This document shows positions 39,366 to 52,698 of a stretch of 64,000 nucleotides of DNA, piece after piece. The position numbers and the translations under genes are program-made. The first letter of the stretch is position 1. Each line of letters starts with the position of its first letter. Source of the DNA: Croceitalea dokdonensis DOKDO 023 (lineage in GTDB: Bacteria; Bacteroidota; Bacteroidia; Flavobacteriales; Flavobacteriaceae); assembly GCF_001306415.1 (NCBI RefSeq), contig NZ_LDJX01000001.1:248001-312000 (forward strand). The letters run 5' to 3'. A model generated the notes under the pieces. That model was not told where the DNA came from. It did no database searches and worked only from the letters and a program-made list of their open reading frames with translations.

Positions 39366-42296
39366 GTGGGGCCAAAATTGTTCACTTTGCAGAAAATTTT
39401 ATTTCAGTCATTAGAATCAGGATTTGAGGGTGATTTTTTAGATGATAGTCTAACTAAGGCCCTTTATGCTACGGACGCCTCAGTTTATCGTAAAATTCCT
39501 TTGGCGGTCGCCTACCCAAAAACAATAGGTGACATTAGAAAACTGATTGCTTTTGCCAACGAAAATAATATAGGTCTTGTACCTAGAACGGCTGGTACAT
39601 CCTTAGCAGGACAATGCGTTGGTGAAGGTATTATTGTGGATACCTCAAGGTATTTCACTAATATTTTGCATTTGGACGTAGAAAAACGACAAGTTGTCGT
39701 ACAGCCCGGGGTGATACGGGATGAGCTCAATCGGTATTTAAAACCATATGGTCTATTTTTTGGTCCAAATACCTCTACATCCAATAGGTGCATGATCGGT
39801 GGAATGGTGGGAAACAACTCTTCTGGGACTACCTCTATACAATACGGGGTTACCCGTGATAAAGTGGTATCGATGACAACCATCCTTTCCGATGGAAACG
39901 AAGCAACATTTGGACCCATCAGCAAAGGGGAGTTTCAAGAAAAAACGCAAATAGACGGCTTAGAAGGGAAGTTGTATCAAACAGTGTTCAATCTGCTCTC
40001 TGACGAAGGAGTGCAACTGCGCATAAAAAACGAATTCCCTAAGCCGGAGATTCACCGCAGGAATACCGGCTATGCCATAGATGAACTGCTACACAATGAG
40101 GTTTTTGGAACGGATAAAGGACCTTTCAACTTTTGTAAATTATTAAGTGGCAGTGAGGGCACCTTGGCTTTCACCACTGAAATCACTTTGGGCTTAGATG
40201 AATTGCCCCCAGAAAAGGCGGCTCTGGTGGCCACCCACTACCATACTTTGGAGGATTGCCTAGCGGACATTGCCCCTGTCATGGAACATCCATTGCACAT
40301 GTGTGAAATGATGGATAAGGTGATTCTGGATTGTACCAAGAACAATAGGCAACAACTTAAAAACCGTTTTTTTGTAGAAGGTGATCCAGCGGCGATTCTA
40401 ATGTTAGAAGTAAAATCCAATACGAATACAGGACTGCAACAGGCCATAGCATCGCTCCAAAACACCATTGCCAAAACGGGTAAGAGCTATGCCAGTCCGG
40501 TGTTATTTGGAGGCGATATTTCAAAGGCTTTTGAGCTTCGTAAGGCGGGTCTTGGGCTTTTGGGGAATATGGTAGGGGACAAAAAAGCCGTTGCCTGTAT
40601 AGAAGATACGGCAGTGGCCCTTAACGATTTAAAGTCCTTTATTGGGGAATTTACCCAAATTATGGAGGGTTACGGGCAAAGTGCGGTGTACTACGCCCAC
40701 GCCGGTGCCGGTGAACTACATCTGCGGCCCATTCTTAACCTTAAAAAATCTGAAGACGTACGTTTGTTCAGGGCCATTACAACAGATGTTGCCGAGCTCA
40801 CCAAAAAATACCAGGGGAGTTTTAGCGGAGAACACGGAGACGGAATCGTAAGGGCAGAATTTATCCCATTGATGTTGGGAGAAGCCAATTACACACTGTT
40901 AAAACAAATAAAATCACTTTTTGATCCCAAAAACATCTTCAACCCAGGCAAAATTGTTGATGCCTACCCCATGGACCAATCGCTCCGGTACCAAATAGAC
41001 CGGGAGGAACCTATAGTGAATACCTTATTGGATTTCTCCGATAGCGAAGGCATCCTAAAAGCGGCCGAAAAGTGCAATGGTAGTGGGGATTGCCGGAAAA
41101 CGCACCATATGCCAGGCGGAATGTGTCCAAGTTATCACGCCACCAAAAATGAAAAAGATACGACTAGGGCCAGGGCCAATGCGTTGCGGGAGTTCTTGAC
41201 CGAGGGAGATCGCCCCAACAATTTTGACCATAAGGAACTTAAAGAAGTATTTGACCTTTGTTTGAGTTGCAAAGCTTGCGCCAGCGAATGTCCCAGCAAT
41301 GTGGATGTTGCCACCCTTAAGGCGGAATTTTTGTACCAGTACCAAGAGACCAACGGGTATTCCCTGCGCAGTAAATTGTTTGCGCATAACACTAGGCTCA
41401 ACGCTTTTGGAAGCAGGGTATCTGCCGTGACCAATGCGGTCTATGATTCATTTTTGGGCACATCCTTAAAAAAGTTAGCCGGTGTTTCCCCAAAAAGAAG
41501 TTTGCCAAAGGTGTACCGGTTTAATTTCAATTCCTTTTTAAAAACGGCTAAAAAGGGTAAGGAGAACGGACAAAAAGTGGCCCTGTATATTGATGAATTT
41601 ACCCGTTATTTGGATGTGGAAGTGGGTCGTGATGCCATATCCTTATTGGTCGGACTGGGCTATGATGTAGAATTGGTACATCTAGAAAGTGGACGCACCT
41701 ATTTGTCCAAGGGTTTTTTACGGCAAGCCAAGGCCTTGGCCCATAAAAACAGCAAAACATTGGCCGCATTTGCGCAAAGAGGGGTACCGGTTTTGGGGCT
41801 GGAACCATCGGCCATCCTATCCTTTAGGGATGAATACAAGCGACTGTTGGAAGATAGGTCCTTGGCGGAGCAAATTTCGGCAAATGCCTATTTGATTGAA
41901 GAATTTTTGGCCAAAGAAATGGAACATGGACGTTTGACCCAAAATCAATTTACGCAAGAACATCAACAAATTAAAATTCACAATCACTGTCACCAGAAGG
42001 CATTGTCCAATCAAAAAGTAACGTTTGATGTTTTGAATCTACCAAAGAATTATAAGGTTTCCATTATCGCCTCTGGATGCTGTGGCATGGCGGGTTCCTT
42101 TGGGTATGAGAAGGAGCATTATGACGTTAGTATGCAAATTGGGGAACTTAAGCTATTTCCAGCGGTAAGAAAATCGGAACGTAAGGTAATCATTGCTGCA
42201 AACGGCACAAGTTGTCGGCATCAAATATTTGATGGTACTCGCAGGAAAGCCATGCATCCAGCTAGCATTTTAAGGCAGGCGTTGCTCGTTCAATAG
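39366..42296 (+). CDS. YdiJ-like FAD and Fe-S dehydrogenase (GlcD-GlpC fusion)
   Basis: A 976-residue fusion of a D-lactate/glycolate-type FAD oxidase with an Fe-S and CCG-domain subunit, as in E. coli YdiJ, a D-2-hydroxyglutarate dehydrogenase. The FAD domain shows VPRTAGTSLAGQCVGEGIIV, the substrate domain YAHAGAGELHLRP and SGEHGDGIVRAEF, then two 4Fe-4S clusters: CNGSGDCRKTHHMPGGMCPS and CLSCKACASECPSNVDVATL. The C-terminal CCG domain has HNHCHQKAL and SGCCGMAGSFG. It probably oxidises a D-2-hydroxyacid and passes electrons to the quinone pool. The start is GTG 39366 or TTG 39378. The 3' end overlaps the convergent LpxH-like gene by 27 bases. Confidence 0.9.
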   Translation: MGPKLFTLQKILFQSLESGFEGDFLDDSLTKALYATDASVYRKIPLAVAYPKTIGDIRKLIAFANENNIGLVPRTAGTSLAGQCVGEGIIVDTSRYFTNILHLDVEKRQVVVQPGVIRDELNRYLKPYGLFFGPNTSTSNRCMIGGMVGNNSSGTTSIQYGVTRDKVVSMTTILSDGNEATFGPISKGEFQEKTQIDGLEGKLYQTVFNLLSDEGVQLRIKNEFPKPEIHRRNTGYAIDELLHNEVFGTDKGPFNFCKLLSGSEGTLAFTTEITLGLDELPPEKAALVATHYHTLEDCLADIAPVMEHPLHMCEMMDKVILDCTKNNRQQLKNRFFVEGDPAAILMLEVKSNTNTGLQQAIASLQNTIAKTGKSYASPVLFGGDISKAFELRKAGLGLLGNMVGDKKAVACIEDTAVALNDLKSFIGEFTQIMEGYGQSAVYYAHAGAGELHLRPILNLKKSEDVRLFRAITTDVAELTKKYQGSFSGEHGDGIVRAEFIPLMLGEANYTLLKQIKSLFDPKNIFNPGKIVDAYPMDQSLRYQIDREEPIVNTLLDFSDSEGILKAAEKCNGSGDCRKTHHMPGGMCPSYHATKNEKDTTRARANALREFLTEGDRPNNFDHKELKEVFDLCLSCKACASECPSNVDVATLKAEFLYQYQETNGYSLRSKLFAHNTRLNAFGSRVSAVTNAVYDSFLGTSLKKLAGVSPKRSLPKVYRFNFNSFLKTAKKGKENGQKVALYIDEFTRYLDVEVGRDAISLLVGLGYDVELVHLESGRTYLSKGFLRQAKALAHKNSKTLAAFAQRGVPVLGLEPSAILSFRDEYKRLLEDRSLAEQISANAYLIEEFLAKEMEHGRLTQNQFTQEHQQIKIHNHCHQKALSNQKVTFDVLNLPKNYKVSIIASGCCGMAGSFGYEKEHYDVSMQIGELKLFPAVRKSERKVIIAANGTSCRHQIFDGTRRKAMHPASILRQALLVQ

Positions 42297-43166
42297 GGAA
42301 AGAATCTGCTCTATGGTGGTAATCTCGCTCTCCTTTTTATTGGTTTTGTTTGGTAACGTATCGGATATCATGTCATTCATATCCATTTCCTTAATATCTT
42401 GGTCCGTAAAGAATGGGGCCAATTTGTCGTTATTATAGCGGTAAATTTTCCAGCGTTTAAAGGAATACTCCAAGGCCGTAAGGTTTTCTACCCAGTCACC
42501 AGAATTTAGGTATAAAGTTTCCCCTAGACCGTTATTGTACACTTCTTTTTTGGGTTGGTGGATGTGCCCGCAGACCACGTAATCAAAATTGTTTTCAATG
42601 GCAATATCACCTGCAGTTTTTTCAAAATCCTTAATATATTTTACTGCATTTTTAACCCCATTTTTGATACGTTTGCTTAAAGAGTATTTTTCTTTACCCT
42701 GCTTTTGGAGAAACCAGTTAAGGCCTCTGTTCAACAATATCAGGATGTCATAACCGTATCCGCCAAGCTTGGCCAGCCATCTAGCATTCTGGATAGACGC
42801 ATCAAAAATGTCCCCATGAAATAACCACGCTTTTTTTCCATCCAGTTCTAAGGTGAGTTTGTTTAAAATTTTAAAGTTCCCCATTACCGTTGGGGCAAAT
42901 TTGCGAAGCATATCATCATGGTTGCCCGTGATATAAATGACCTCTGTATCCTTTGTGGCCATATCCATTAACTTACGTAGCACTTTTAAATGGGAGGCTG
43001 GAAAATAGTGTTTTCTAAATTGCCAGATATCAATAATGTCCCCGTTAAGGACGAGTTTTTTAGGTGCAATACTATTTAAGTAGGTCAAAAGCTCATTGGC
43101 ATGGCATCCGTAAGTACCAAGGTGTACGTCTGAGATTACGGCAATTTCTAATCTTCGCTTTTTCAA
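42270..43166 (-). CDS. LpxH-like calcineurin phosphoesterase (putative UDP-2,3-diacylglucosamine diphosphatase)
   Basis: The 298-residue metallophosphoesterase shows the dinuclear-metal motifs in order: ISDVHLGTYGC (DxH), LNGDIIDIWQ (GDxxD), GNHDDMLRKF (GNHD) and GHIHQPKKEV (GHxH), plus LFHGDIFD. Annotation in this phylum is UDP-2,3-diacylglucosamine diphosphatase, the lipid A step after LpxA/C/D, but it is longer than E. coli LpxH (about 240) by a C-terminal extension, so the role is inferred. Its 3' end overlaps the YdiJ-like gene. Confidence 0.85.
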   Translation of the reverse strand: MKKRRLEIAVISDVHLGTYGCHANELLTYLNSIAPKKLVLNGDIIDIWQFRKHYFPASHLKVLRKLMDMATKDTEVIYITGNHDDMLRKFAPTVMGNFKILNKLTLELDGKKAWLFHGDIFDASIQNARWLAKLGGYGYDILILLNRGLNWFLQKQGKEKYSLSKRIKNGVKNAVKYIKDFEKTAGDIAIENNFDYVVCGHIHQPKKEVYNNGLGETLYLNSGDWVENLTALEYSFKRWKIYRYNNDKLAPFFTDQDIKEMDMNDMISDTLPNKTNKKESEITTIEQILSLLNEQRLP

Positions 43167-43428
43167 TACCGATAAGTTTAAAACAAAATTCGCACCTATT
43201 TTTTTATTGTTAAATGAATTGAAGTCAATAGATTATCAGATTATCGTTAACTAATTGTGATGCCTAATTTTCCAATGTTAGGGAAATATTAATTTTCCCG
43301 TTTGCTTATGGTGGAATGTTGTTGTGAATCACTTGTAAACCCAACTTTAAACCTGAGTTCTAGTTTACGGCCCACTTTCTTTTATAAACCCCATTTAAAA
43401 ATTAACTTTGGACTTTAAGCAATGAGGT

Positions 43429-44493
43429 ATGGCAGGGAATTCTTTTGGAAGTTTGTTTAGGTTGACCACTTTTGGTGAATCCCATGGCAGGGCCCTGGGG
43501 GGCATAATCGACGGTTGCCCGGCGGGAATCGTACTGGATCAAGATGCCATACAGCAAGAATTAAACCGGCGAAGACCAGGACAATCATCCATAGTTACAC
43601 AACGGAAAGAGGCAGATACCGTTGAAATTTATTCCGGAACGTTTGAGGGTAAAACTACGGGTACGCCCATAGGTTTTGCCATTCACAATACCAATCAAAA
43701 ATCTAAGGATTACGGTCATATCAAAGATTCTTACCGTCCTTCCCATGCAGACTATGTCTATGACCAAAAATACGGGTTCCGGGATTATAGGGGCGGTGGG
43801 CGTAGTTCTGCCCGTGAAACGGCAAGTAGGGTAGTTGCAGGTGCCATTGCAAAACAGTTTCTAAAGGATGTGAGGATAAATGCCTTTGTATCCCAAGTAG
43901 GTGAACTGAAACTCGAGAAAAATTACCAAGAGCTCGATTTTAACCAAATAGAGAAAAATGCCGTGCGCTGTGCAGACCCAGAGATGGCTGCGCTTATGGA
44001 GGATTACATTAAGGCTGTAAAGAAAGAAGGGGATACCATTGGGGGAGTCATCACCTGTGTTGCCCAAAATGTTCCCGTTGGCCTGGGCGAACCGGTTTTT
44101 GACAAGCTACATGCGGAATTGGGCAAGGCCATGCTATCCATCAATGCGGTAAAGGGATTTGAATATGGCAGCGGTTTTGCTGGAGTTGCTATGAAAGGGA
44201 GTTCGCACAATGACCAGTTCAATGCCGATGGAAGCACAAAGACCAATCTTAGCGGTGGAGTGCAAGGGGGTATCAGTAACGGAATGGACATTTATTTTAA
44301 TGTGGCCTTTAAACCCGTGGCCACGGTTTTGCAGGCTTACGATACCATTGATAAAGAAGGCAATAAAGTTACGACGCAGGGAAAAGGACGTCATGATCCT
44401 TGCGTCGTCCCTAGGGCAGTGCCTATTGTGGAGGCCATGACCGCTTTGGTTTTGGCAGATTATAGTTTGTTGGCCAGAACAAATAAAATATGA
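43429..44493 (+). CDS. aroC: Chorismate synthase
   Basis: AroC removes phosphate from EPSP to give chorismate, using reduced FMN as catalyst, the last shared step of aromatic amino-acid synthesis. The 354-residue length is standard. The three PROSITE-type blocks are present: [37 protein letters not shown], and [17 protein letters not shown] near the C-terminus. [20 protein letters not shown] gives the FMN/substrate-site Arg and His residues. No other aro gene is in the window. The gene is monocistronic with a 262-base gap before it and a 208-base gap after. Confidence 0.97.
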
Positions 44494-44701
44494 AAATTGT
44501 ACTGGACGTAGTTTTTGAACAGAAGGCAGCAGCTCGTTTAAAATTTGTATGCAGAGAGCTTGGTTTTGCTGGCTCTAGCTTATGATAGACCTCTTTTGTC
44601 AATGCGTTCACCAACCCTATTTAAAGGGTCTTCGGCAGCGGATTGCCATTAGGTTTTATACTTAGTGCATTTAATAGTATCTTCCACCACAAATTTTAAC
44701 T

Positions 44702-46027
44702 ATGCGCAAACTTGAACTCCACTGGAAAATCCTCATTGGGATGCTTTTGGGAATCGTTTTTGGATTTTTGATGACCCTTTGGGCTCAAGGACCGGACTTT
44801 GTAAACGATTGGATTCAGCCTTTGGGAACAATTTTTGTGAAATTACTGAAATTGATTGCCATTCCGCTGATCATCGCTTCCTTGGTCAAAGGGATTTCCG
44901 ATTTAAAGGATATTTCAAAATTCAGAAACATAGGTCTTAGGACCATAGGAATCTACGTCCTTACCACGGTGGTCGCCATCACCATTGGCCTGGTTTTGGT
45001 AAATATAGCCAAGCCGGGGGACGGAATATCTGCGGAAACAGTGCAGAAATTGACAGAAACCTATGCCAGTTCTGACGGGGTTGCCAAAAAGATGGATGAA
45101 GCCATGAAACAGAAAGACAGTGGCCCCTTACAGTTCTTGGTGGATATGGTACCGGACAATGCGCTAAAAGCCATGAGTGACAATAGTCTAATGCTCCAAG
45201 TCATCTTTTTTACCATATTCTTGGGTATTTCCATGCTGTTAATAGGGGAAGAACGTGCCAAACCCCTTAAAGACTTTTTTGATGCCTTAAATGATGTAGT
45301 ACTGAAAATGGTGGATTTGATAATGCTTTCCGCACCTTATGCGGTTTTTGCCTTGCTGGCGGGGGTCGTGGTATCTTCCAGTGATCCTGATTTGTTGCTG
45401 GCCTTGCTAAAATATGCGGGTACCGTGGTCCTAGGACTTTTCCTGATGATCGTGTTTTACGGTTTTGTGGTCGCATTGGTCACCAAAAAGAACCCTTTTT
45501 GGTTTTTAAAAGAAATGAGCCCTGCACAACTCTTGGCGTTTTCAACGAGTTCCAGTGCCGCTACCTTACCCGTGACCATGGAACGGGTAGAGGAACACAT
45601 TGGGGTGGACAAGGAAGTATCAAGCTTTGTCTTGCCCGTTGGGGCCACCATTAATATGGATGGGACCAGCTTGTATCAGGGCGTTGCGGCCGTTTTTATA
45701 GCACAGGCCCTAGGTTTTGACCTTACCTTGGGAGACCAATTAACCATTGTCTTAACTGCGCTTTTGGCGTCCATTGGTTCCGCAGCGGTTCCGGGAGCGG
45801 GTATGGTGATGCTCGTCATTGTTTTGGAAGCTATAGGTTTTCCTTCTGATAAATTGGCCATTGGCCTGGCCCTTATCTTTGCCGTGGACAGACCGTTGGA
45901 CATGTGCCGCACCGTTGTGAACGTCACCGGGGATGCCACCGTTTCCATGGTGGTTGCCAAATCTGTTGGTAAACTGGGGAAACCAAAAGTTAAGGAATGG
46001 GATGATCATTATGAGGAGGTAAAATAA
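44702..46027 (+). CDS. Dicarboxylate/amino acid:cation symporter (DAACS family)
   Basis: A 441-residue Na+/H+-coupled transporter for glutamate, aspartate or C4-dicarboxylates, the GltP/DctA/GltPh family. The tell-tale re-entrant loop HP1 has FSTSSSAATLPVTM, the TM7 motif is GATINMDGTSLYQG (NMDGT), and TM8 has DRPLDMCRTVVNVTGDA with the Asp and Asn that bind substrate. About eight membrane helices plus two hairpins fit. A loop insertion near residues 110-150 (AETVQKLTETYASSDGVAKK) is periplasmic. Substrate cannot be decided from sequence: Arg in TM8 (CRTVVN) suggests acidic amino acids or dicarboxylates. Confidence 0.94.
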   Translation: MRKLELHWKILIGMLLGIVFGFLMTLWAQGPDFVNDWIQPLGTIFVKLLKLIAIPLIIASLVKGISDLKDISKFRNIGLRTIGIYVLTTVVAITIGLVLVNIAKPGDGISAETVQKLTETYASSDGVAKKMDEAMKQKDSGPLQFLVDMVPDNALKAMSDNSLMLQVIFFTIFLGISMLLIGEERAKPLKDFFDALNDVVLKMVDLIMLSAPYAVFALLAGVVVSSSDPDLLLALLKYAGTVVLGLFLMIVFYGFVVALVTKKNPFWFLKEMSPAQLLAFSTSSSAATLPVTMERVEEHIGVDKEVSSFVLPVGATINMDGTSLYQGVAAVFIAQALGFDLTLGDQLTIVLTALLASIGSAAVPGAGMVMLVIVLEAIGFPSDKLAIGLALIFAVDRPLDMCRTVVNVTGDATVSMVVAKSVGKLGKPKVKEWDDHYEEVK

Positions 46028-46229
46028 GCCTGCGCCATACCAGTATGTACAGCTAAAGGTTGTCTGCTAATCGGATTTAAGAATATCCGCCCAAAGAATT
46101 CAAACAAACGGCGGCCAGATAGCTCCAATATTTTGAGTTATCGGAAATAACCAATATCTTTTGGGCTAAGCTAATAGTGGCCATAAAAACCGAAGCCAAC
46201 GGTTAGTGATTCACCTCTAAAAACACCGT

Positions 46230-47261
46230 ATGAACATTTGTTTTTTAATGTACCCATGGGAAGAAATAGACCCAGAGAATGACACCAGTCTCGCGCTCAT
46301 ACACGAATGTGTAAAAAGAGGGCATGGAGTAGCAACCTGTAGTCCTGCAAATTTGACCATTAGAAATAGCGTTACCAATGCCTTCTGCAATGTCATTGGC
46401 CGAATGGCAAAGGTATCCAGCAATTTAAAAACCTTTTACAAACAGGCACAGCTTCGCGAAGAAATGCTTCCATTGGCAGGTTTTGATGTTATTTTTATGC
46501 GTGCCAATCCGCCACTAGATCCCTTAATGCTTAATTTTTTGGATTCGGTCAAGGATGATGTGTTTATCATGAATTCCCTACAAGGGCTTCGGGAAGCCAA
46601 TAACAAATTGTACACGGCCGCTTTTGGAGATAGCCATAGCAATATAATCCCAGTTACCCACGTATCTAAAAACAAGAACTACTTGGTACGCCAAATCAAA
46701 GAGTCCCCAGCGGATAAAATGATATTAAAGCCATTGAACGGTTTTGGGGGCTCTGGTGTGATTTTGATAGAAAAATCCGCTATGAACAATATTAAGTCAT
46801 TATTGGATTTTTATGTGACCAATTCTGACGGAACATCCAACTATGTGATACTTCAAGAATACATTGAAGGTGCCGATCAAGGAGACGTTCGGATTTTGTT
46901 ACTTAACGGAGAGCCTATTGGCGCCATGAAAAGGGTGCCGGGTTCTGACGATCACCGTTCCAACGTTTCTGCCGGCGGTTCCGTGGCCAAGCATTCCATG
47001 ACCAAACAAGAAAAGGCACTTTGTAAACAGATTGGGCCTAAATTGGTAAAGGATGGCTTGTACTTTGTTGGTATTGATGTCATAGGGGGTAAACTTGTTG
47101 AAGTCAATGTGATGTCTCCCGGCGGTATTACCTATATGAACAAAGTGTACAAAACAAAAATCCAGGCCAAGGTCATTGATTTTGTAGAGAGTAAGGTGTT
47201 GGACAAATTGGAGGCTTTTAACAGAAGGTCTAGACTACGCAACGAAGTTGAAAATGCTTAG
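46230..47261 (+). CDS. Glutathione-synthetase-like ATP-grasp ligase
   Basis: The 343-residue protein is an ATP-grasp enzyme close to GshB: PEN-type N-terminus (FLMYPWEEIDPENDTSLALI), MRANPPLDPLMLNF, the glycine loop KPLNGFGGSGVILIEKS, LQEYIEGADQGDVRILLLNG, and the Mg-site GIDVIGGKLVEVNVMSPGG. It would join a carboxylate to an amine using ATP. A GshA partner is not in the window, and the gene forms an operon, overlapping by 8 bases, with an N-formylglutamate amidohydrolase-like and a QEGLA metallopeptidase gene. So the product may be a peptide other than glutathione. Confidence 0.9.
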   Translation: MNICFLMYPWEEIDPENDTSLALIHECVKRGHGVATCSPANLTIRNSVTNAFCNVIGRMAKVSSNLKTFYKQAQLREEMLPLAGFDVIFMRANPPLDPLMLNFLDSVKDDVFIMNSLQGLREANNKLYTAAFGDSHSNIIPVTHVSKNKNYLVRQIKESPADKMILKPLNGFGGSGVILIEKSAMNNIKSLLDFYVTNSDGTSNYVILQEYIEGADQGDVRILLLNGEPIGAMKRVPGSDDHRSNVSAGGSVAKHSMTKQEKALCKQIGPKLVKDGLYFVGIDVIGGKLVEVNVMSPGGITYMNKVYKTKIQAKVIDFVESKVLDKLEAFNRRSRLRNEVENA

Positions 47262-48078
47262 GTTATCGGTTGCGGAGATGGTTTCCAAAATAGAGAGCCA
47301 AGAACCCTTTGAGGCGGTTGCGGATGACTATTCCTTTACCCTTAAGATTGAAGAATACGTACCTTATGTCTGCGCTGCGGTGCATGACGGGCATCAGTTT
47401 AGAAAATCACTTTGGGATACTTGTTTGCATACGGAATATGAGCGCTGGTATGAGGAAGATCCCTGTACCAAACAGTTGGTGCAAACCCAACCCATAGTGA
47501 TTGCGGGGTTGGATAGCCGTTTTGAATATGACCTAAACCGCCCAGCGGAAACTGCAATTTTTGATACCGCCTGGGGGAAACAATTATGGAAAAGCCCCCT
47601 TGCAGAGGTTGAAAAGCGGGAAAGTCTAAGGAAACACGCTAATTTTTATAAGGTGGTTTACGCTTTAATCAACAAAGTGGAATACCTATATGGTAAAGCC
47701 ATTGTGTTTGACATGCACAGTTACAATTGGAAGCGATGGGACAGGGCAGTACCCACATGGAACCTTGGCACTGCGAATATTGATAATGGCAGGTTTGGAA
47801 ACATGGTGGAGGCTTGGAGTAAAAGATTGGGGAGCATCCAACTGCCGTACAAGCTTCCACAGACCTCCCTTATCAATGATACTTTTCAAGGCAATGGCCA
47901 TTTCTTAAAATACATTACCCAAAACTTTGCAAATACCCTGGTTCTGGCCACGGAAATCTCAAAAATCTATTGTGATGAACTTACGGGCATCATTTTTCCC
48001 GAAGTTGTAAAAACGGTGGAAGACCAATTAAAACAATTGATACCTTTACAGACCAAAGAATTTATGAGTCACGTATGA
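47254..48078 (+). CDS. N-formylglutamate amidohydrolase-like enzyme
   Basis: The 274-residue protein (from ATG 47254) belongs to the N-formylglutamate amidohydrolase (HutG/FGase) family, zinc enzymes that cut formyl or amide bonds. Visible landmarks are VPYVCAAVHDGHQFRK (metal-site region), GLDSRFEYDLNRP, VFDMHSYNWKRWD with the metal-binding Asp and His, and the NGHFLKYITQ block. The start overlaps the stop of the ATP-grasp gene (ATGCTTAG) and its own stop overlaps the next start by 4 bases, so the three products are made together. There are no other hut genes here, so a role in histidine breakdown is unlikely. Confidence 0.85.
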   Translation: MLRLSVAEMVSKIESQEPFEAVADDYSFTLKIEEYVPYVCAAVHDGHQFRKSLWDTCLHTEYERWYEEDPCTKQLVQTQPIVIAGLDSRFEYDLNRPAETAIFDTAWGKQLWKSPLAEVEKRESLRKHANFYKVVYALINKVEYLYGKAIVFDMHSYNWKRWDRAVPTWNLGTANIDNGRFGNMVEAWSKRLGSIQLPYKLPQTSLINDTFQGNGHFLKYITQNFANTLVLATEISKIYCDELTGIIFPEVVKTVEDQLKQLIPLQTKEFMSHV

Positions 48079-49247
48079 TTCCTGTAGCACCTATAGCAGA
48101 TTTACAACAGCAATATCCATTCTTGTTTGATATCGATTCCAATTTAAACCGATTGGTGAAGCGTATAGAATTGTTGAGCTACGTAAATCCCTTGAATACG
48201 GAAAAAGAAAAACATCGTTTTTTTGCCTCAAAGTATACCTACGAACCGGAGTTTAAGTATCCCAAGTTAAAATTTGACCCCTATAAATTGCAACGGTTGT
48301 TTTTTTCGCAACGTTTGGAACGTATTCAGGACGATACCATACGCAAATCTTACCAAGACGTGGTCTATTACTATGCCAATATGATACAGTGTATTGAGAC
48401 CATAGGAAGGGGCAAAAAATTCTACTATAATTCTTTACGGGTCTACGGAACCCCAACGGAGCGGGATGTGGATAATGCCCGTTTTATCTTGCATTATGCA
48501 GATGAGCCTCAGGGAGAGGACATGGACAAAGTCTTTTCCGCAGAAGAGGCAAAAGCGTTTTTTGAACAATTTGCCAAGCAATATGACTTTCCTTTGAACA
48601 TCAAGTTCTCCGTACATATTTCTGCTGCTGCCATGGTTAGCAATGCTACGCAGACCCTTTTTATCAAAAAGAACAATAAGTTCAGTAAAAATCAGCTTTT
48701 GACCTTGGCGCATCATGAAATTGGGGTACATCTGGTCACGACCTTTAACGGTCTAAAGCAGCCATTGACCATATTTTCCAACGGATTACCCAAAAATGTG
48801 GAAACCCAAGAAGGCTTGGCCGTTTTGAGTGAATATATGGGTGGGGCATTGACCTTAAAACGGCTGAAAGAGTTGGCCTACCGTGTCATGGCGGCAGACA
48901 GCCTGATAAAAGGGTACTCTTTTGCCGATACGTTTGACCTTATTCACGGGCATTATAAACTGAATAGGGACGATGCGTTTGCCATTACCCTAAGGGCACA
49001 TAGGGGTGGAGGTTTTACTAAAGATAGACTATACTTAAGTGGCCTGCGAAAAATTTACAAACGCTACCAAAGTGGTAAGCCCATGGATATGCTTCTGACT
49101 GGTAAAGTGGCTCTGGACAGTGAGCCGTCCATGAGCTATATGAAGCAGTTAGGGCTTGTTGAACCCATTACCTACAAAAGTCTTTCCTTTCAAGAGAAAT
49201 TGAACACCAATACCACTTTGGATTTCATTCTTAATAATTTAAAATAA
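48075..49247 (+). CDS. QEGLA-motif zinc metallopeptidase (DUF1704)
   Basis: A 390-residue protein of DUF1704, often called flavohemoglobin expression-modulating QEGLA motif protein. It contains HHEIGVHLVTTFNG (zinc motif HExxH-like with His spacing HEIGVH) and TQEGLAVLSEYMGG, where the Glu is the expected third metal ligand. Eukaryotic relatives (MATCAP/KIAA0895L) are tubulin carboxypeptidases that remove C-terminal tyrosine, which suggests a bacterial carboxypeptidase. It is the last gene of the three-gene operon, overlapping its predecessor by 4 bases (ATGA). The native substrate is unknown; the partner ligase may make it. Confidence 0.88.
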   Translation: MIPVAPIADLQQQYPFLFDIDSNLNRLVKRIELLSYVNPLNTEKEKHRFFASKYTYEPEFKYPKLKFDPYKLQRLFFSQRLERIQDDTIRKSYQDVVYYYANMIQCIETIGRGKKFYYNSLRVYGTPTERDVDNARFILHYADEPQGEDMDKVFSAEEAKAFFEQFAKQYDFPLNIKFSVHISAAAMVSNATQTLFIKKNNKFSKNQLLTLAHHEIGVHLVTTFNGLKQPLTIFSNGLPKNVETQEGLAVLSEYMGGALTLKRLKELAYRVMAADSLIKGYSFADTFDLIHGHYKLNRDDAFAITLRAHRGGGFTKDRLYLSGLRKIYKRYQSGKPMDMLLTGKVALDSEPSMSYMKQLGLVEPITYKSLSFQEKLNTNTTLDFILNNLK

Positions 49248-49267
49248 CTTGGTAGGCATGTTCTAAT

Positions 49268-49980
49268 TGTCATGCAAAGCACAAAGCATCCCTAGGTTGG
49301 GTAAGCAGGAGCAATGTAGTCCGTCTATAAGGGATTCTTCGCCCTTTGCCAGATAGATTACTACGACAAGAATAACAAACAACTACAAAGATTTTTACGT
49401 TCGCACCATGTGTCATGCTTAGGCACGAAGCATCCCTATGTTAAGTAAGTAAGTGTAGTGTAGTCCGTTTAGGATAGGGATTGCTCGCCCTTTGCCAGAC
49501 AGATTACTACGACTAGAATAACAAACAACTACAAAGATTTTTATGTACGCAACATGTGTCATGCTGAGGTACGAAGCATCCCTAGGTTGGGTAAGCAGGA
49601 GCACTGTAGTGCGTTTAAAAGGGATTCTTCGCCCTTTGCCAGTTGATTACTTACAATCAGAATAACAAACAACTACAAAGACTTTTATGTACTTGCTTTT
49701 TGTCATGCTGAGGCACGAAGCATCCCTATGTTGAGTAAGCAAGCGTACTATAGTCTGTCTATAAGGGATTCTTCGCCCTTTGCCAGTTGATTACTTACAA
49801 TCAGAATAACAAACAACTACAAAGATTTTTATAAACGCATCAGTTGTCATGCTGAGGCACGAAGCATCCCTAGGTTGGGTAAGCAAGCGTAGTCCAGTCC
49901 ATTTATGATTGGGCTTCCTGCCTGTTCGCAGCCGGATTCACTACAGTCAGAATAACAAACAACTACAAAGACTTTTATGT
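49268..49980. repeat. Five tandem copies of a ~144-bp repeat
   Basis: Copies begin with TGTCATG at 49268, 49411, 49557, 49701 and 49845 (spacing 143, 146, 144 and 144). Each has ACGAAGCATCCCTA near the start, a run like GTAAGCAGGAGC, GGGATTCTTCGCCCTTTGCC in the middle, and AATAACAAACAACTACAAAG followed by TTTTA at the end. CGAAGCATCCCT and AGGGATTCTTCG form an imperfect inverted repeat in each copy. Copy 5 is the most diverged in the middle. There is no gene on either strand, and the whole gap 49248-50083 is otherwise empty. Sequences of this type (CATGCTGAGG.ACGAAGC) recur as intergenic repeats in many Flavobacteriia; I infer the relation. Confidence 0.85.
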
Positions 49981-50083
49981 AAGCAAACAACCTTATCCTA
50001 TGTGATTGTTATTAAAAACGCCCATCGTCAATGCTTCATAAAAAGACTGCAGGATATAAAAATTGCCCACGGAGAAGCACCAC

Positions 50084-52183
50084 CTATAATGAAATATAAC
50101 GCCCACGCGGGTATTTTACCTGAAAACCAAAGGTTTCTGTTTTAATTTCTTGAGGCATTAGGTTCAACTTCCAGGTGAGAAGTCCTTTTTTACTATCAAA
50201 ATCTGCCGTATCTATCAAAATATCATCAATTTTAATGTCTTTGTTCTGGGATTTTGGTATTCTGTCCAACAACCTTAATGAAATGGCCACACCTTTATTG
50301 TTCTTCACCTCAATGACATACCTACGGTTTAGAATACGATTGTTGCCGCTAAAGGACCTGCTCTTAAAATTCCGTTCTTGCTTTCGGCTAACAGTGATAT
50401 TGGGGTCAATACCTAGAGAGAGTACCATTTCTTTTTTGGTAGTGTAAGGGTCCAACACTGTTTTGCCTGCATAAGTACCCTCAAAATAAATATTGGCCTC
50501 TCCTGGCAACAATTGTAGTTTTTCCCAATCTGTAAAGCTCGTGGTCAGGAAAACATTTTCATTGACTATGGGGGCGGCAAAATATTCGTAGGAGGCAGGT
50601 AGGGCAAAGGAGTTGATTTCAATGGCAGTGATATCATTATCCGAGGGAATGTCATATGTCTTTTTTATGACAAACTCCGTTTTGGTCGCCCCCTCTACAG
50701 AATCACTTTTTTTAGTCGTGATAATGACCACTCCAGAGGTGCCTCGGCTGCCGTAAAGTGATGTGGCGTCCTCCCCTTTGAGGATATCAATACTTTGAAT
50801 TTCACTGGCATCCAAATCACCCTCAGTATAGCCATCAAGGGGAACGCCATCAATAATATAAAGGGGTTGCAGTTCCTGATAATTCGCTCTGGCATTAGTT
50901 CCCCTTAGGCTAGAACTCCCCCTAATTTGTATCCCAGCTGCCCGGCCTTGAAGCAATCTTTCAGTGGTAACACTGCCAACCGCTCCGGTAATACCAGTGG
51001 AACTAGAAGTTCCATATCCCATAACCACCACCTCGTCCAAAGCACTGGCGTCTTCCTCTAAGCTTAAATTGATAATGGACGAATACAAGGGGATATCTTG
51101 ATTGTGCATCCCTAGATAGGAGAAACTCAGTTCTTGTCCGTAGGGCACCTCTAATTCGTAATGGCCATCAAAATCGGTTTGTGTACCTGTTTGGGTTCCT
51201 TTTACTAAAATATTTACACCTGGTAAAGGTTGTCCGGAGGCATCTGTTACCGTTCCTGCCACCTTTTTAACACTGGGGTTGTAGGAATAACCTTTTTTCT
51301 TTTGGATATGGGAATAGCGTTTGGAATAGGCAGATGTAAAATCTAAATAATGAGTTTCCAATTTGGGTTTACTGATATTAAAGTCTGGTTTTCCCGTTGA
51401 TAATACAACCCGTACACCTTCCCAATCTTTCCCCGTATTTTGGTACACATTGGCCTTATAGGCCAAGTTCAATGGTGCGTTTAGCCCCGTGGACTTGATA
51501 TCGTAATTGGGTACCCATCCCGCATCGTTAACCATATATTTAAGGGTAACCTTTAAGGTTGTGGCGATAGGGGCATCAAAGGTAATGGCGATTTCCCCTT
51601 GCTGGGTATCCGGGGTGTTATTAGCCTCGGCCAGCTGTTGTTGCAAGTCTTTTATAGTTGTTTGATGCTTGTTTATCTCTAGGTTGGTCCTGAAAATTTG
51701 GTTTTTGATCGCCGTAATCCGTTCCCGGTAATAGGTACTTATTTCCTTTACCTTTTCCAGGTCCAGCGCTTGATTGTCCGTACCGACCATGCGGTTGGTG
51801 GTGATTACCTTTTCTTCCTCACTTAGCCCTGCTATTTTGTTTTTTAAAAAAGTAATGTCTTGTTGCGCAGAAGCAATTGCGTTTTCCCACGCGGTTACCT
51901 TTGGATGGCTTTCCCGTTTGTCCAAATAATTGATTTGGTACCCCATGGTTAAGATGGAAACACCATTTAAGCCGGAAACTTGAATGCTACTTTCATCAAT
52001 TTTGTGTGATAGGCCTGTAAAGATGATTTCATTACTTCCTTTTGTAAGACTGCAATTGGCTGTGCGGGTGACTTGTGCACCACTGAGGTAGACCGTGACC
52101 GATTGGATGTTTGAAGCTATTGGTTTTTGAGCGGAGAATACAAAGTAGGGGAGGCAAAAGATAAAAAGATAACAAAGTTTCAT
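50084..52183 (-). CDS. DUF4139 (MuiA-like) protein with inserted carboxypeptidase-like and SusC-plug domains
   Basis: A 699-residue secreted protein built as a nested fusion. A signal peptide (LCYLFIFCLPYFVFSAQ) leads into the DUF4140 start domain (SVTVYLSGAQVTRTANCSLT), a coiled coil (about 100-195) and the first half of DUF4139 (MVNDAGWVPNYDIKS). At about residue 307 the DUF4139 is interrupted by a carboxypeptidase D-like domain (VAGTVTDASGQPLPGVNILV) and a TonB-receptor plug-like module (DEVVVMGYGTSSS, LYIIDGVPLDGY, IQSIDILKGEDATSLYGSRG; to about 492). From about 505 the DUF4139 resumes (FVIKKTYDIPSDNDITAIEI) to the end. No outer-membrane barrel follows the plug. Confidence 0.85.
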   Translation of the reverse strand: MKLCYLFIFCLPYFVFSAQKPIASNIQSVTVYLSGAQVTRTANCSLTKGSNEIIFTGLSHKIDESSIQVSGLNGVSILTMGYQINYLDKRESHPKVTAWENAIASAQQDITFLKNKIAGLSEEEKVITTNRMVGTDNQALDLEKVKEISTYYRERITAIKNQIFRTNLEINKHQTTIKDLQQQLAEANNTPDTQQGEIAITFDAPIATTLKVTLKYMVNDAGWVPNYDIKSTGLNAPLNLAYKANVYQNTGKDWEGVRVVLSTGKPDFNISKPKLETHYLDFTSAYSKRYSHIQKKKGYSYNPSVKKVAGTVTDASGQPLPGVNILVKGTQTGTQTDFDGHYELEVPYGQELSFSYLGMHNQDIPLYSSIINLSLEEDASALDEVVVMGYGTSSSTGITGAVGSVTTERLLQGRAAGIQIRGSSSLRGTNARANYQELQPLYIIDGVPLDGYTEGDLDASEIQSIDILKGEDATSLYGSRGTSGVVIITTKKSDSVEGATKTEFVIKKTYDIPSDNDITAIEINSFALPASYEYFAAPIVNENVFLTTSFTDWEKLQLLPGEANIYFEGTYAGKTVLDPYTTKKEMVLSLGIDPNITVSRKQERNFKSRSFSGNNRILNRRYVIEVKNNKGVAISLRLLDRIPKSQNKDIKIDDILIDTADFDSKKGLLTWKLNLMPQEIKTETFGFQVKYPRGRYISL

Positions 52184-52290
52184 TAGGATTGGTTTTTAAA
52201 TTTCATCAAACCTAAGTAGATGATGACTCCGGTAAAACCAACAATTATTGAACAGGAATACGAGGCAGGTAAAAGCTACGTCTGGGTGAG

Positions 52291-52698
52291 TTAGGTTAAA
52301 AATTTTGCTCGAAGTTCCTTTGTAGGAACCATACAAGCCTCTTTTTTACCGTACCAATGGTATCGGTTACGCGCTACAAAATCATATATAAGATTTCTAA
52401 ACCCCAAAGGAAAGAGTTTAAAAAATTTGGATAGCGTTCTATATCCTTTTAAATGGGCTCCTATCTGCAATGCCGCATCGGACTTGATATAGTAAGCCAA
52501 TCCGGGTTCTATTAGAATTATGGAATCTACATTGGCCGTATCAATACCTCGTTCAGAAGTTAGTTTTTGTCCAATCTCACTTTGGAGCGCGGCATATCTA
52601 AATAGGTCGGCCGTATCATGCTTTATAATGAACTGAACAGAGCGGTCGCAAAGATTGCACACCCCATCAAACAATATGATTTTTTTACTCGCGTTCAC
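52291..52698 (-). CDS. DCC-family thiol-disulfide oxidoreductase (DUF393)
   Basis: A 135-residue thioredoxin-like protein of the DCC family, named for its Asp-x-x-Cys-x-x-Cys motif: ILFDGVCNLCDRSVQFII shows DGVCNLC. The rest fits the family: YAALQSEIGQKL and DSIILIEPGLAYYIKSDAAL, then FRNLIYDFVARNRYHWYGKK. The cellular partner is unknown. It lies between the MuiA-like gene and the TPR regulator on the same strand with short gaps. Confidence 0.92.
   Translation of the reverse strand: MNASKKIILFDGVCNLCDRSVQFIIKHDTADLFRYAALQSEIGQKLTSERGIDTANVDSIILIEPGLAYYIKSDAALQIGAHLKGYRTLSKFFKLFPLGFRNLIYDFVARNRYHWYGKKEACMVPTKELRAKFLT

Follow-up and report, generated by a model that had tools for sequence, protein, structure and literature searches.

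We analysed a 64,000-nucleotide stretch of the Croceitalea dokdonensis DOKDO 023 genome (contig NZ_LDJX01000001.1, positions 248,001 to 312,000; hereafter the window), in which three overlapping genes encode an ATP-grasp ligase of the PRK12458 family, a protein resembling N-formylglutamate amidohydrolase (FGase) and a metallocarboxypeptidase-like protein of the MATCAP/DUF1704 family. An earlier interpretation of the window made without database searches (the sequence-only reading) had placed the three genes here with overlaps of 8 and 4 bases, and both the list of open reading frames (ORFs) and the sequence itself bear this out. The features are, in window positions:

46230..47261, + strand: gene for the PRK12458-family ATP-grasp ligase, 343 amino acids (aa); annotated in relatives as 'glutathione synthase/synthetase'
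47254..47261, + strand: 8-base overlap of the ligase and FGase genes (ORF list and sequence read)
47254..48078, + strand: gene for the FGase-like amidohydrolase, 274 aa; PF05013
48075..48078, + strand: 4-base overlap of the FGase and MATCAP genes, ATGA (ORF list and sequence read)
48075..49247, + strand: gene for the MATCAP/DUF1704 metallocarboxypeptidase-like protein, 390 aa; PF08014
48714..48731, + strand: HExxxH metal-binding motif HEIGVH; H214, E215 and H219 invariant in 13/13 aligned proteins
48807..48821, + strand: QEGLA motif with the presumed third metal ligand E246; Q245, E246 and G247 invariant in 13/13 aligned proteins

The FGase-like gene begins with the ATG at 47254; the mechanical ORF begins at a TTG at 47248.

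The three genes form a real conserved module, as is evident from the recurring gene set, its co-occurrence across genomes, gene fusions, fold families and catalytic motifs. We confirmed 563 relatives and analysed the best 80 loci in named genomes, a set that leans to close kin because the best 80 of 563 were taken; the nearest named related loci are those of Allomuricauda/Flagellimonas. Matches to all three genes were found in 71 of these 80 loci (with the ligase short at a contig edge in one and the FGase short in one), and locus L055 ends before the ligase (L, G, C and f numbers are our labels for loci, genomes, contigs and families). Across 94 related loci, the order is ligase, FGase, MATCAP in 78, with fused FGase-MATCAP proteins scored as having this order, and FGase, MATCAP, ligase in five. 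The overlaps recur as well. Among 82 loci with three separate best matches, ligase and FGase adjoin in 54, of which 45 have an ATG that gives the exact 8-base overlap; FGase and MATCAP adjoin in 81, and 33 of these have the ATGA overlap.

Co-occurrence was measured by searching 247 evenly drawn Bacteroidota genomes with a profile of each family. MATCAP is present in 15 of them, and the PRK12458 ligase exceeds its cut-off in 13, all MATCAP-positive, and in none of the 232 genomes without MATCAP (Fisher p = 7e-20, uncorrected for relatedness). The ligase of one MATCAP-positive genome, G002, falls just under the cut-off (396.5 bits), and the best ligase scores among MATCAP-negative genomes are 215 and 194 bits. 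The MATCAP-positive genomes span six families (f1, f3, f7, f8, f23 and f43), five of which have a ligase over the cut-off; in f1, eight genomes carry both MATCAP and ligase, and 19 others listed have neither over the cut-off. At the MATCAP locus itself, a ligase is found in 14 of the 15 genomes and an FGase, as its own gene or as part of a fusion, in 13. G053 (locus L032) lacks an FGase next to MATCAP; there, a protein of the AstE/AspA (aspartoacylase) family follows the ligase (69.6 bits, cut-off 25) and an amino-acid permease is encoded nearby.

Mapping the neighbourhood across phyla, a check proposed in the sequence-only reading, showed that it recurs in Bacteroidota and Proteobacteria. MATCAP matches were found in 127 plasmid or megaplasmid records, 79 of them from Sinorhizobium, and eight such regions were examined, six annotated and two unannotated, the latter by ORF scan. 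In all five annotated rhizobial-type stretches (four from Hyphomicrobiales and one labelled Roseateles), the genes are annotated as N-formylglutamate amidohydrolase, QEGLA protein and 'glutathione synthase/synthetase', in this order, and the unannotated pSymB of S. meliloti 1021 contains the same three genes. The other unannotated region, from Photobacterium sp. DA100, encodes the ligase followed by a 662-aa FGase-MATCAP fusion. Vibrio sp. HDW18 encodes a 663-aa FGase-MATCAP fusion with no ligase adjacent (L114:7128-9119); a ligase domain was not found on the replicon that carries this fusion, the only one searched. A published comparative-genomics table lists COG3930 of V. vulnificus next to 'glutathione synthetase' (VV2_1203/VV2_1204; PMC3091676).

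The window ligase scores 470 bits against NF009110/PRK12458 (cut-off 408), and all five cluster ligases scored from other genomes exceed this cut-off too (429-501 bits). It matches PF02955 with 182.5 bits and a RimK-like ATP-grasp profile with 70.4 bits, and it stays under the cut-off of the glutathione synthase profile TIGR01380 (239.4 bits, cut-off 299.05). Its sequence matches E. coli GshB (1gsa) over nearly the full length (E 3e-40), and the alignment shows conservation of R210, R225, R233, N235, D273, E281 and N283, which we take to be catalytic arginines and Mg ligands. The two proteins differ in the GshB signatures RKDPPFD and NVTSPT, which are absent from all 19 aligned cluster ligases of both cluster kinds; in their place these ligases have R-x-(N/D)-P for RKDP and NV-x-(S/T)-PG for NVTSPT, with PG(G/A) where GshB reads PT. 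The signature forms are kept in E. coli GshB and in two GshB-like proteins of MATCAP-negative Bacteroidota (G194 and G076), and in each of these two genomes a GCS2 match lies about 1.4 kb from the GshB-like gene. Three PRK12458-type ligases that carry the public label 'glutathione synthase/synthetase' also lack the GshB signatures (L116:9161-10207, L129:7801-8847 and L131:7815-8861).

The sequence-only reading had described a GshB-like ligase without GshA, and this agrees with searches for two families of gamma-glutamylcysteine synthetase, GCS2 (PF04107) and Glu_cys_ligase (PF04262). Neither family matched in the window genome, and the E. coli positive control matched for each; Glu_cys_ligase was likewise found in none of the 15 MATCAP genomes. 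A search with PF08886 matched 0 of 17 genomes, but its positive control gave no match either, so that this result cannot show absence. BshC, of bacillithiol synthesis, is present in the window genome and in all 17 genomes searched (the 15 MATCAP genomes with G076 and G194). The window genome has one MATCAP and three proteins with a glutathione-synthetase ATP-grasp domain, the window ligase among them; the other two (contigs C10 and C13) look RimK-type by alignment, a label of our own. Because no gamma-glutamylcysteine synthetase of the two families was matched, BshC is present and two GshB signatures are missing, the window ligase is, from its sequence, probably not an ordinary GshB, and glutathione synthesis is probably not its role in this genome. 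On the same grounds ordinary glutathione synthesis was rejected as the principal explanation of the locus.

The FGase-like protein belongs to the FGase family by score and by fold. It scores 47.2 bits against PF05013 (cut-off 28.9), and no NCBIfam profile matched it at E 0.1. Its AlphaFold2 model (mean pLDDT 95.6) superimposes on the N-formylglutamate amidohydrolases 2q7s (Z 24.9, 238 residues, rmsd 2.5) and 2odf (Z 22.1); the next-best folds, at Z 11-13, are M14 carboxypeptidases (up to Z 12.6) and succinylglutamate desuccinylase. A search of PDB sequences with the FGase profile gave no match at E 0.1, and it was the fold comparison that recovered FGase. Residues H44, H47, E68, D93, N95, R96, D153, H155 and E234 are invariant in all 24 sequences from the window and the genome loci, and they presumably resemble the residues with which carboxypeptidase A binds zinc and carboxylate. 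In contrast to the structurally characterized enzymes, with which it shares 15-18% identity, the protein is encoded next to, or in relatives fused with, MATCAP. As the sequence-only reading had noted, the gene lies outside a hut operon: there is no hut gene of the histidine pathway among the six neighbours scanned (39366-52698), which sets it apart from HutG-type genes; the scan covered these six genes.

Separate clusters combine an FGase, a divergent GCS2 protein (frame of about 420-430 aa) and an ATP-grasp protein (about 480-500 aa), for example at G226:C1:849767-852338 (L136) and G171:C42:9793-12462 (L135), and matches to these three families stand side by side in several more Bacteroidota of the survey. 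In these clusters, as at the window locus, the FGase adjoins an amidoligase; they differ in the presence of GCS2 and in that their RimK-like ATP-grasp proteins score far under the PRK12458 cut-off.

The third protein had been likened to tubulin carboxypeptidases, and it does belong to that family: the window protein scores 355 bits against PF08014 (cut-off 27), and a profile built from 13 relatives finds human MATCAP (7z5g) at E 3e-17. Human MATCAP (TMCP1, KIAA0895L; 7z5g and 7z6s) is a tubulin tyrosine carboxypeptidase with which the bacterial proteins share the catalytic domain and the HExxxH, QEG/EEG and KDxxYL motifs common to the family; the QEGLA motif aligns with the EEG motif of the human protein, giving a (Q/E)EG metal site. 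The bacterial proteins differ in sequence (about 20% identity for L026), in having a GshB-like ligase as neighbour and, in one clade, in a degenerate FGase domain. Against TIGR02421 ('QEGLA'), the window protein stays under the cut-off (314.9 bits, cut-off 338.65) though the QEGLA letters are present; L026 (334.2 bits) is also under the cut-off, and the Photobacterium fusion (459.9 bits) passes.

FGase-MATCAP fusions were found at L023, L115 and L114. In a tree of 21 MATCAP sequences, the long forms (11 sequences from rhizobia and other Bacteroidota) group with 100/100 support, and the short or fused forms (nine sequences, from the window, L023, Photobacterium, Vibrio and other Flavobacteriaceae) with 89/87 support; the root is unsure because L019 forms a very long branch. 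The long forms have about 220 extra N-terminal residues. No Pfam match was found for this extension in the two proteins scanned (L024 and L031), and its profile matched no PDB sequence at E 1. Compared with the FGase family by hhalign, the extension aligns over 209 columns (probability 97%, E 9e-11). In an AlphaFold2 model of L026 (mean pLDDT 88.5), the N-terminal part resembles FGase (2q7s; Z 12.3, 175 residues, rmsd 3.3) and the C-terminal part human MATCAP (Z 23.4, 291 residues, rmsd 3.1, 20% identity). In the extension sequence displayed in the alignment, a gap stands at the first conserved histidine, F, E and W stand in for H47, D153 and H155, and S for E234. By profile and model, the N-terminal extension of the long clade is predicted to be a degenerate FGase domain, and an FGase that looks active is encoded in this clade as a separate gene. 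The FGase half of the Vibrio fusion, at the locus without an adjacent ligase, has S in place of H47 and Y in place of H155 (alignment including plasmid records), as if FGase decays without the ligase. We infer an ancestral FGase-MATCAP fusion whose division into two genes in Flavobacteriaceae left the ATGA overlap behind and whose FGase half decayed in the long clade. At loci L024 and L025, the FGase (64% and 59% identical to that of the window) and one ligase are of the window type, the MATCAP belongs to the long clade, and a further ligase is present.

We hypothesize, with about an even chance of being right, that the module ligates and trims a small peptide-like metabolite other than glutathione. 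The ATP-grasp ligase would activate a carboxylate with ATP and join an amino acid to it through an amide bond, MATCAP, with its metallocarboxypeptidase fold, would take the C-terminal residue off again, and the FGase-like enzyme would hydrolyse the acyl-amino-acid amide of the remainder. The acceptor of the ligase would be acyl-amino-acid-like, and the cycle would build and dismantle a small acyl-amino acid or dipeptide. We propose such a cycle because a ligase stands here with two hydrolases, both from families that recognise free carboxylates; the make-and-trim system envisaged in the sequence-only reading is compatible with these enzyme classes. All three enzymes may share one compound, perhaps an N-acylated and possibly acidic dipeptide, and may act in the directions given here. 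Weak hints of an acidic amino acid come from the AstE/AspA-family protein of G053, the permease near it and, in Flavobacteriaceae, a symporter upstream of the module.

Systems in which an ATP-grasp ligase works with peptidases are known in general. The nearest functional parallel is the mammalian cycle of N-acetylaspartylglutamate, a compound that is synthesized by an ATP-grasp ligase and taken apart by a zinc carboxypeptidase, which cleaves off glutamate, and by aspartoacylase, which cleaves off the acetyl group. The proposed cycle has in common with it an ATP-grasp ligase, a metallocarboxypeptidase and an M14-like deacylase; the enzyme families differ in part. In Bacteroidota and Proteobacteria alike, the module links bacterial relatives of a tubulin-trimming family to a single ligase subfamily and a single family of amidohydrolases. 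The compound to look for is thereby limited to one that has a free carboxylate and one amino acid that can be ligated. Should the module make a new metabolite, the name 'glutathione synthetase' would mislead for this ligase subfamily. In the literature searched, with subscription papers mostly outside it, we found no description of the operon, no paper joining DUF1704 or N-formylglutamate amidohydrolase with ATP-grasp, and no report of a role of bacterial MATCAP relatives. The accessible parts of PMC10499314, PMC4431377 and PMC5936775 do not describe the operon, and those of PMC10308900 and PMC3091676 tabulate neighbouring QEGLA/COG3930 and glutathione-synthetase genes.

Several observations weigh against a ligate-and-trim cycle. 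No acyltransferase that could supply the acyl-amino acid was seen in the cluster. Eight of the 80 nearest loci consist of the symporter followed by MATCAP, and their genomes contain no PRK12458 ligase over the cut-off and no FGase match genome-wide (both are present in 4/4 comparison genomes). HExxxH and QEG are intact in all eight, so that MATCAP has a use of its own; the loss of ligase and FGase together in 8/8 genomes indicates that these two behave as a pair. In a mirror-tree analysis with a neighbour gene controlled for, the distances of the three proteins correlate weakly (partial r 0.17-0.25). Neither partner adjoins the divergent MATCAP of G186, the FGase family occurs in 39 of the 247 genomes, 25 of them without MATCAP, GCS2-family proteins occur in six of the 15 MATCAP genomes, and the NCBI glutathione synthase equivalog NF003573 accepts the window ligase (286.1 bits, cut-off 272). 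Independent variation of the FGase and MATCAP genes, which the sequence-only reading had named as a sign against its proposal, is therefore seen in part, in the MATCAP-only loci and in the absence of an adjacent FGase from G053; the joint loss of ligase and FGase goes the other way. Taken further, the MATCAP-only loci, the weak residual co-evolution and the FGase family in MATCAP-free genomes would make the genes mere neighbours without a common pathway and MATCAP an independent peptidase. We regard this as improbable, given that MATCAP has the ligase beside it in 14 of the 15 MATCAP genomes sampled and also in records from alpha- and gammaproteobacteria, and given the fusions and the degenerate FGase domain. 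Slightly less probable still is that the ligase is an ordinary glutathione synthetase: NF003573 and the conserved R210, R225, R233, D273, E281 and N283 speak for it, and against it stand the missing GCS2 and Glu_cys_ligase matches, the TIGR01380 score, the altered signatures and BshC.

Among readings that keep the three genes together, we consider it unlikely, though the least so of the alternatives, that the ligase attaches a residue to the C-terminus of a cellular protein and MATCAP takes it off again, in the manner of tubulin tyrosine ligase (TTL) and MATCAP in eukaryotes, with FGase maturing or editing the same tail. The likeness of the L026 MATCAP domain to the human enzyme, the family motifs and the RimK-like match of the ligase (RimK being a protein-modifying ligase) favour this; however, the ligase is GshB-like and has no match to TTL (PF03133) at E 0.01, relatives of FGase presumably work on small molecules, and MATCAP survives without the ligase. 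The second ligase of L024 matches TTL at E 0.012, below the cut-off. A broader version has a somewhat smaller chance: ligase and MATCAP would form a bacterial cycle of C-terminal addition and removal on a peptide or protein, a functional counterpart and perhaps antecedent of tubulin tyrosination, and the FGase paralogue of one clade would be a non-catalytic fused domain that perhaps holds a complex together. To the same small degree, the product could serve in salt or osmotic adaptation as a dipeptide-like solute of the kind of N-acetylglutaminylglutamine amide. In a transcriptome of Photobacterium damselae at 1% versus 3% NaCl, RS17020 ('GshB') is up 38.4-fold and RS17025 ('QEGLA') 27.5-fold (PMC10308900), which suggests a salt-responsive role there; to judge by their names and neighbouring tags, these would be the cluster genes. 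The induction is at low rather than high salt, in a single organism in which 1,808 genes changed (PMC10308900), and many of the plasmid-record carriers are rhizobia. A role in sulfur or thiol metabolism, with a cysteine-containing peptide as the ligase product served by a sulfurtransferase, is a little more doubtful. It is suggested by a 3-mercaptopyruvate-sulfurtransferase-like rhodanese encoded between ligase and FGase in 18 of the 94 loci (e.g. L027:6770-7609, L024:11316-12137, L092:5001-6156), but this is missing from the other 76 and from the window, where the ligase and FGase genes overlap, and the annotation of the five rhizobial-type stretches includes no sulfurtransferase.

The L027 rhodanese scores 216 bits against NF008557, under the cut-off of 250, and the rhodanese is often accompanied by a 110-aa protein, the one example scanned having no Pfam match. 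At L029:11314-12792, a D-Ala-D-Ala-ligase-like ATP-grasp domain and a SET domain are encoded together in a 492-aa frame that lies some 440 bases ahead of the FGase gene.

Three further proposals were tried and rejected. The motif of an EcfG-type general-stress promoter was seen in two of six rhizobial-type upstream stretches, both from S. meliloti at -332, and was absent from the Photobacterium one. PADLOC models for anti-phage defence matched none of the three proteins at E 0.01. As to phage cargo, none of 15 pattern matches in viral contigs was confirmed as a relative; Pseudomonas phage Y1 has a partial MATCAP-like match (OQ572403.1:63515-64081, 32.5% over 46% of the query).

Upstream of the module lies a further gene:

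44702..46027, + strand: gene of the sodium:dicarboxylate/glutamate symporter family (PF00375, 425.6 bits), upstream syntenic neighbour

It also stands upstream of MATCAP at the eight loci without ligase and FGase, and it was not found adjoining the three-gene set in Aquimarina loci; its functional link to the set is uncertain. The six neighbours between 39366 and 52698 encode, by Pfam, this symporter, chorismate synthase, a phosphoesterase, an FAD oxidase, a DUF4139/4140 protein and a DCC1-like protein. In the DUF4139/DUF4140 protein (50084-52183), the middle part matches carboxypeptidase-regulatory-like and TonB-plug domains. Directly 3' of the MATCAP gene, a 144-base intergenic repeat is present in five tandem copies (49268-49986, 81% matches).

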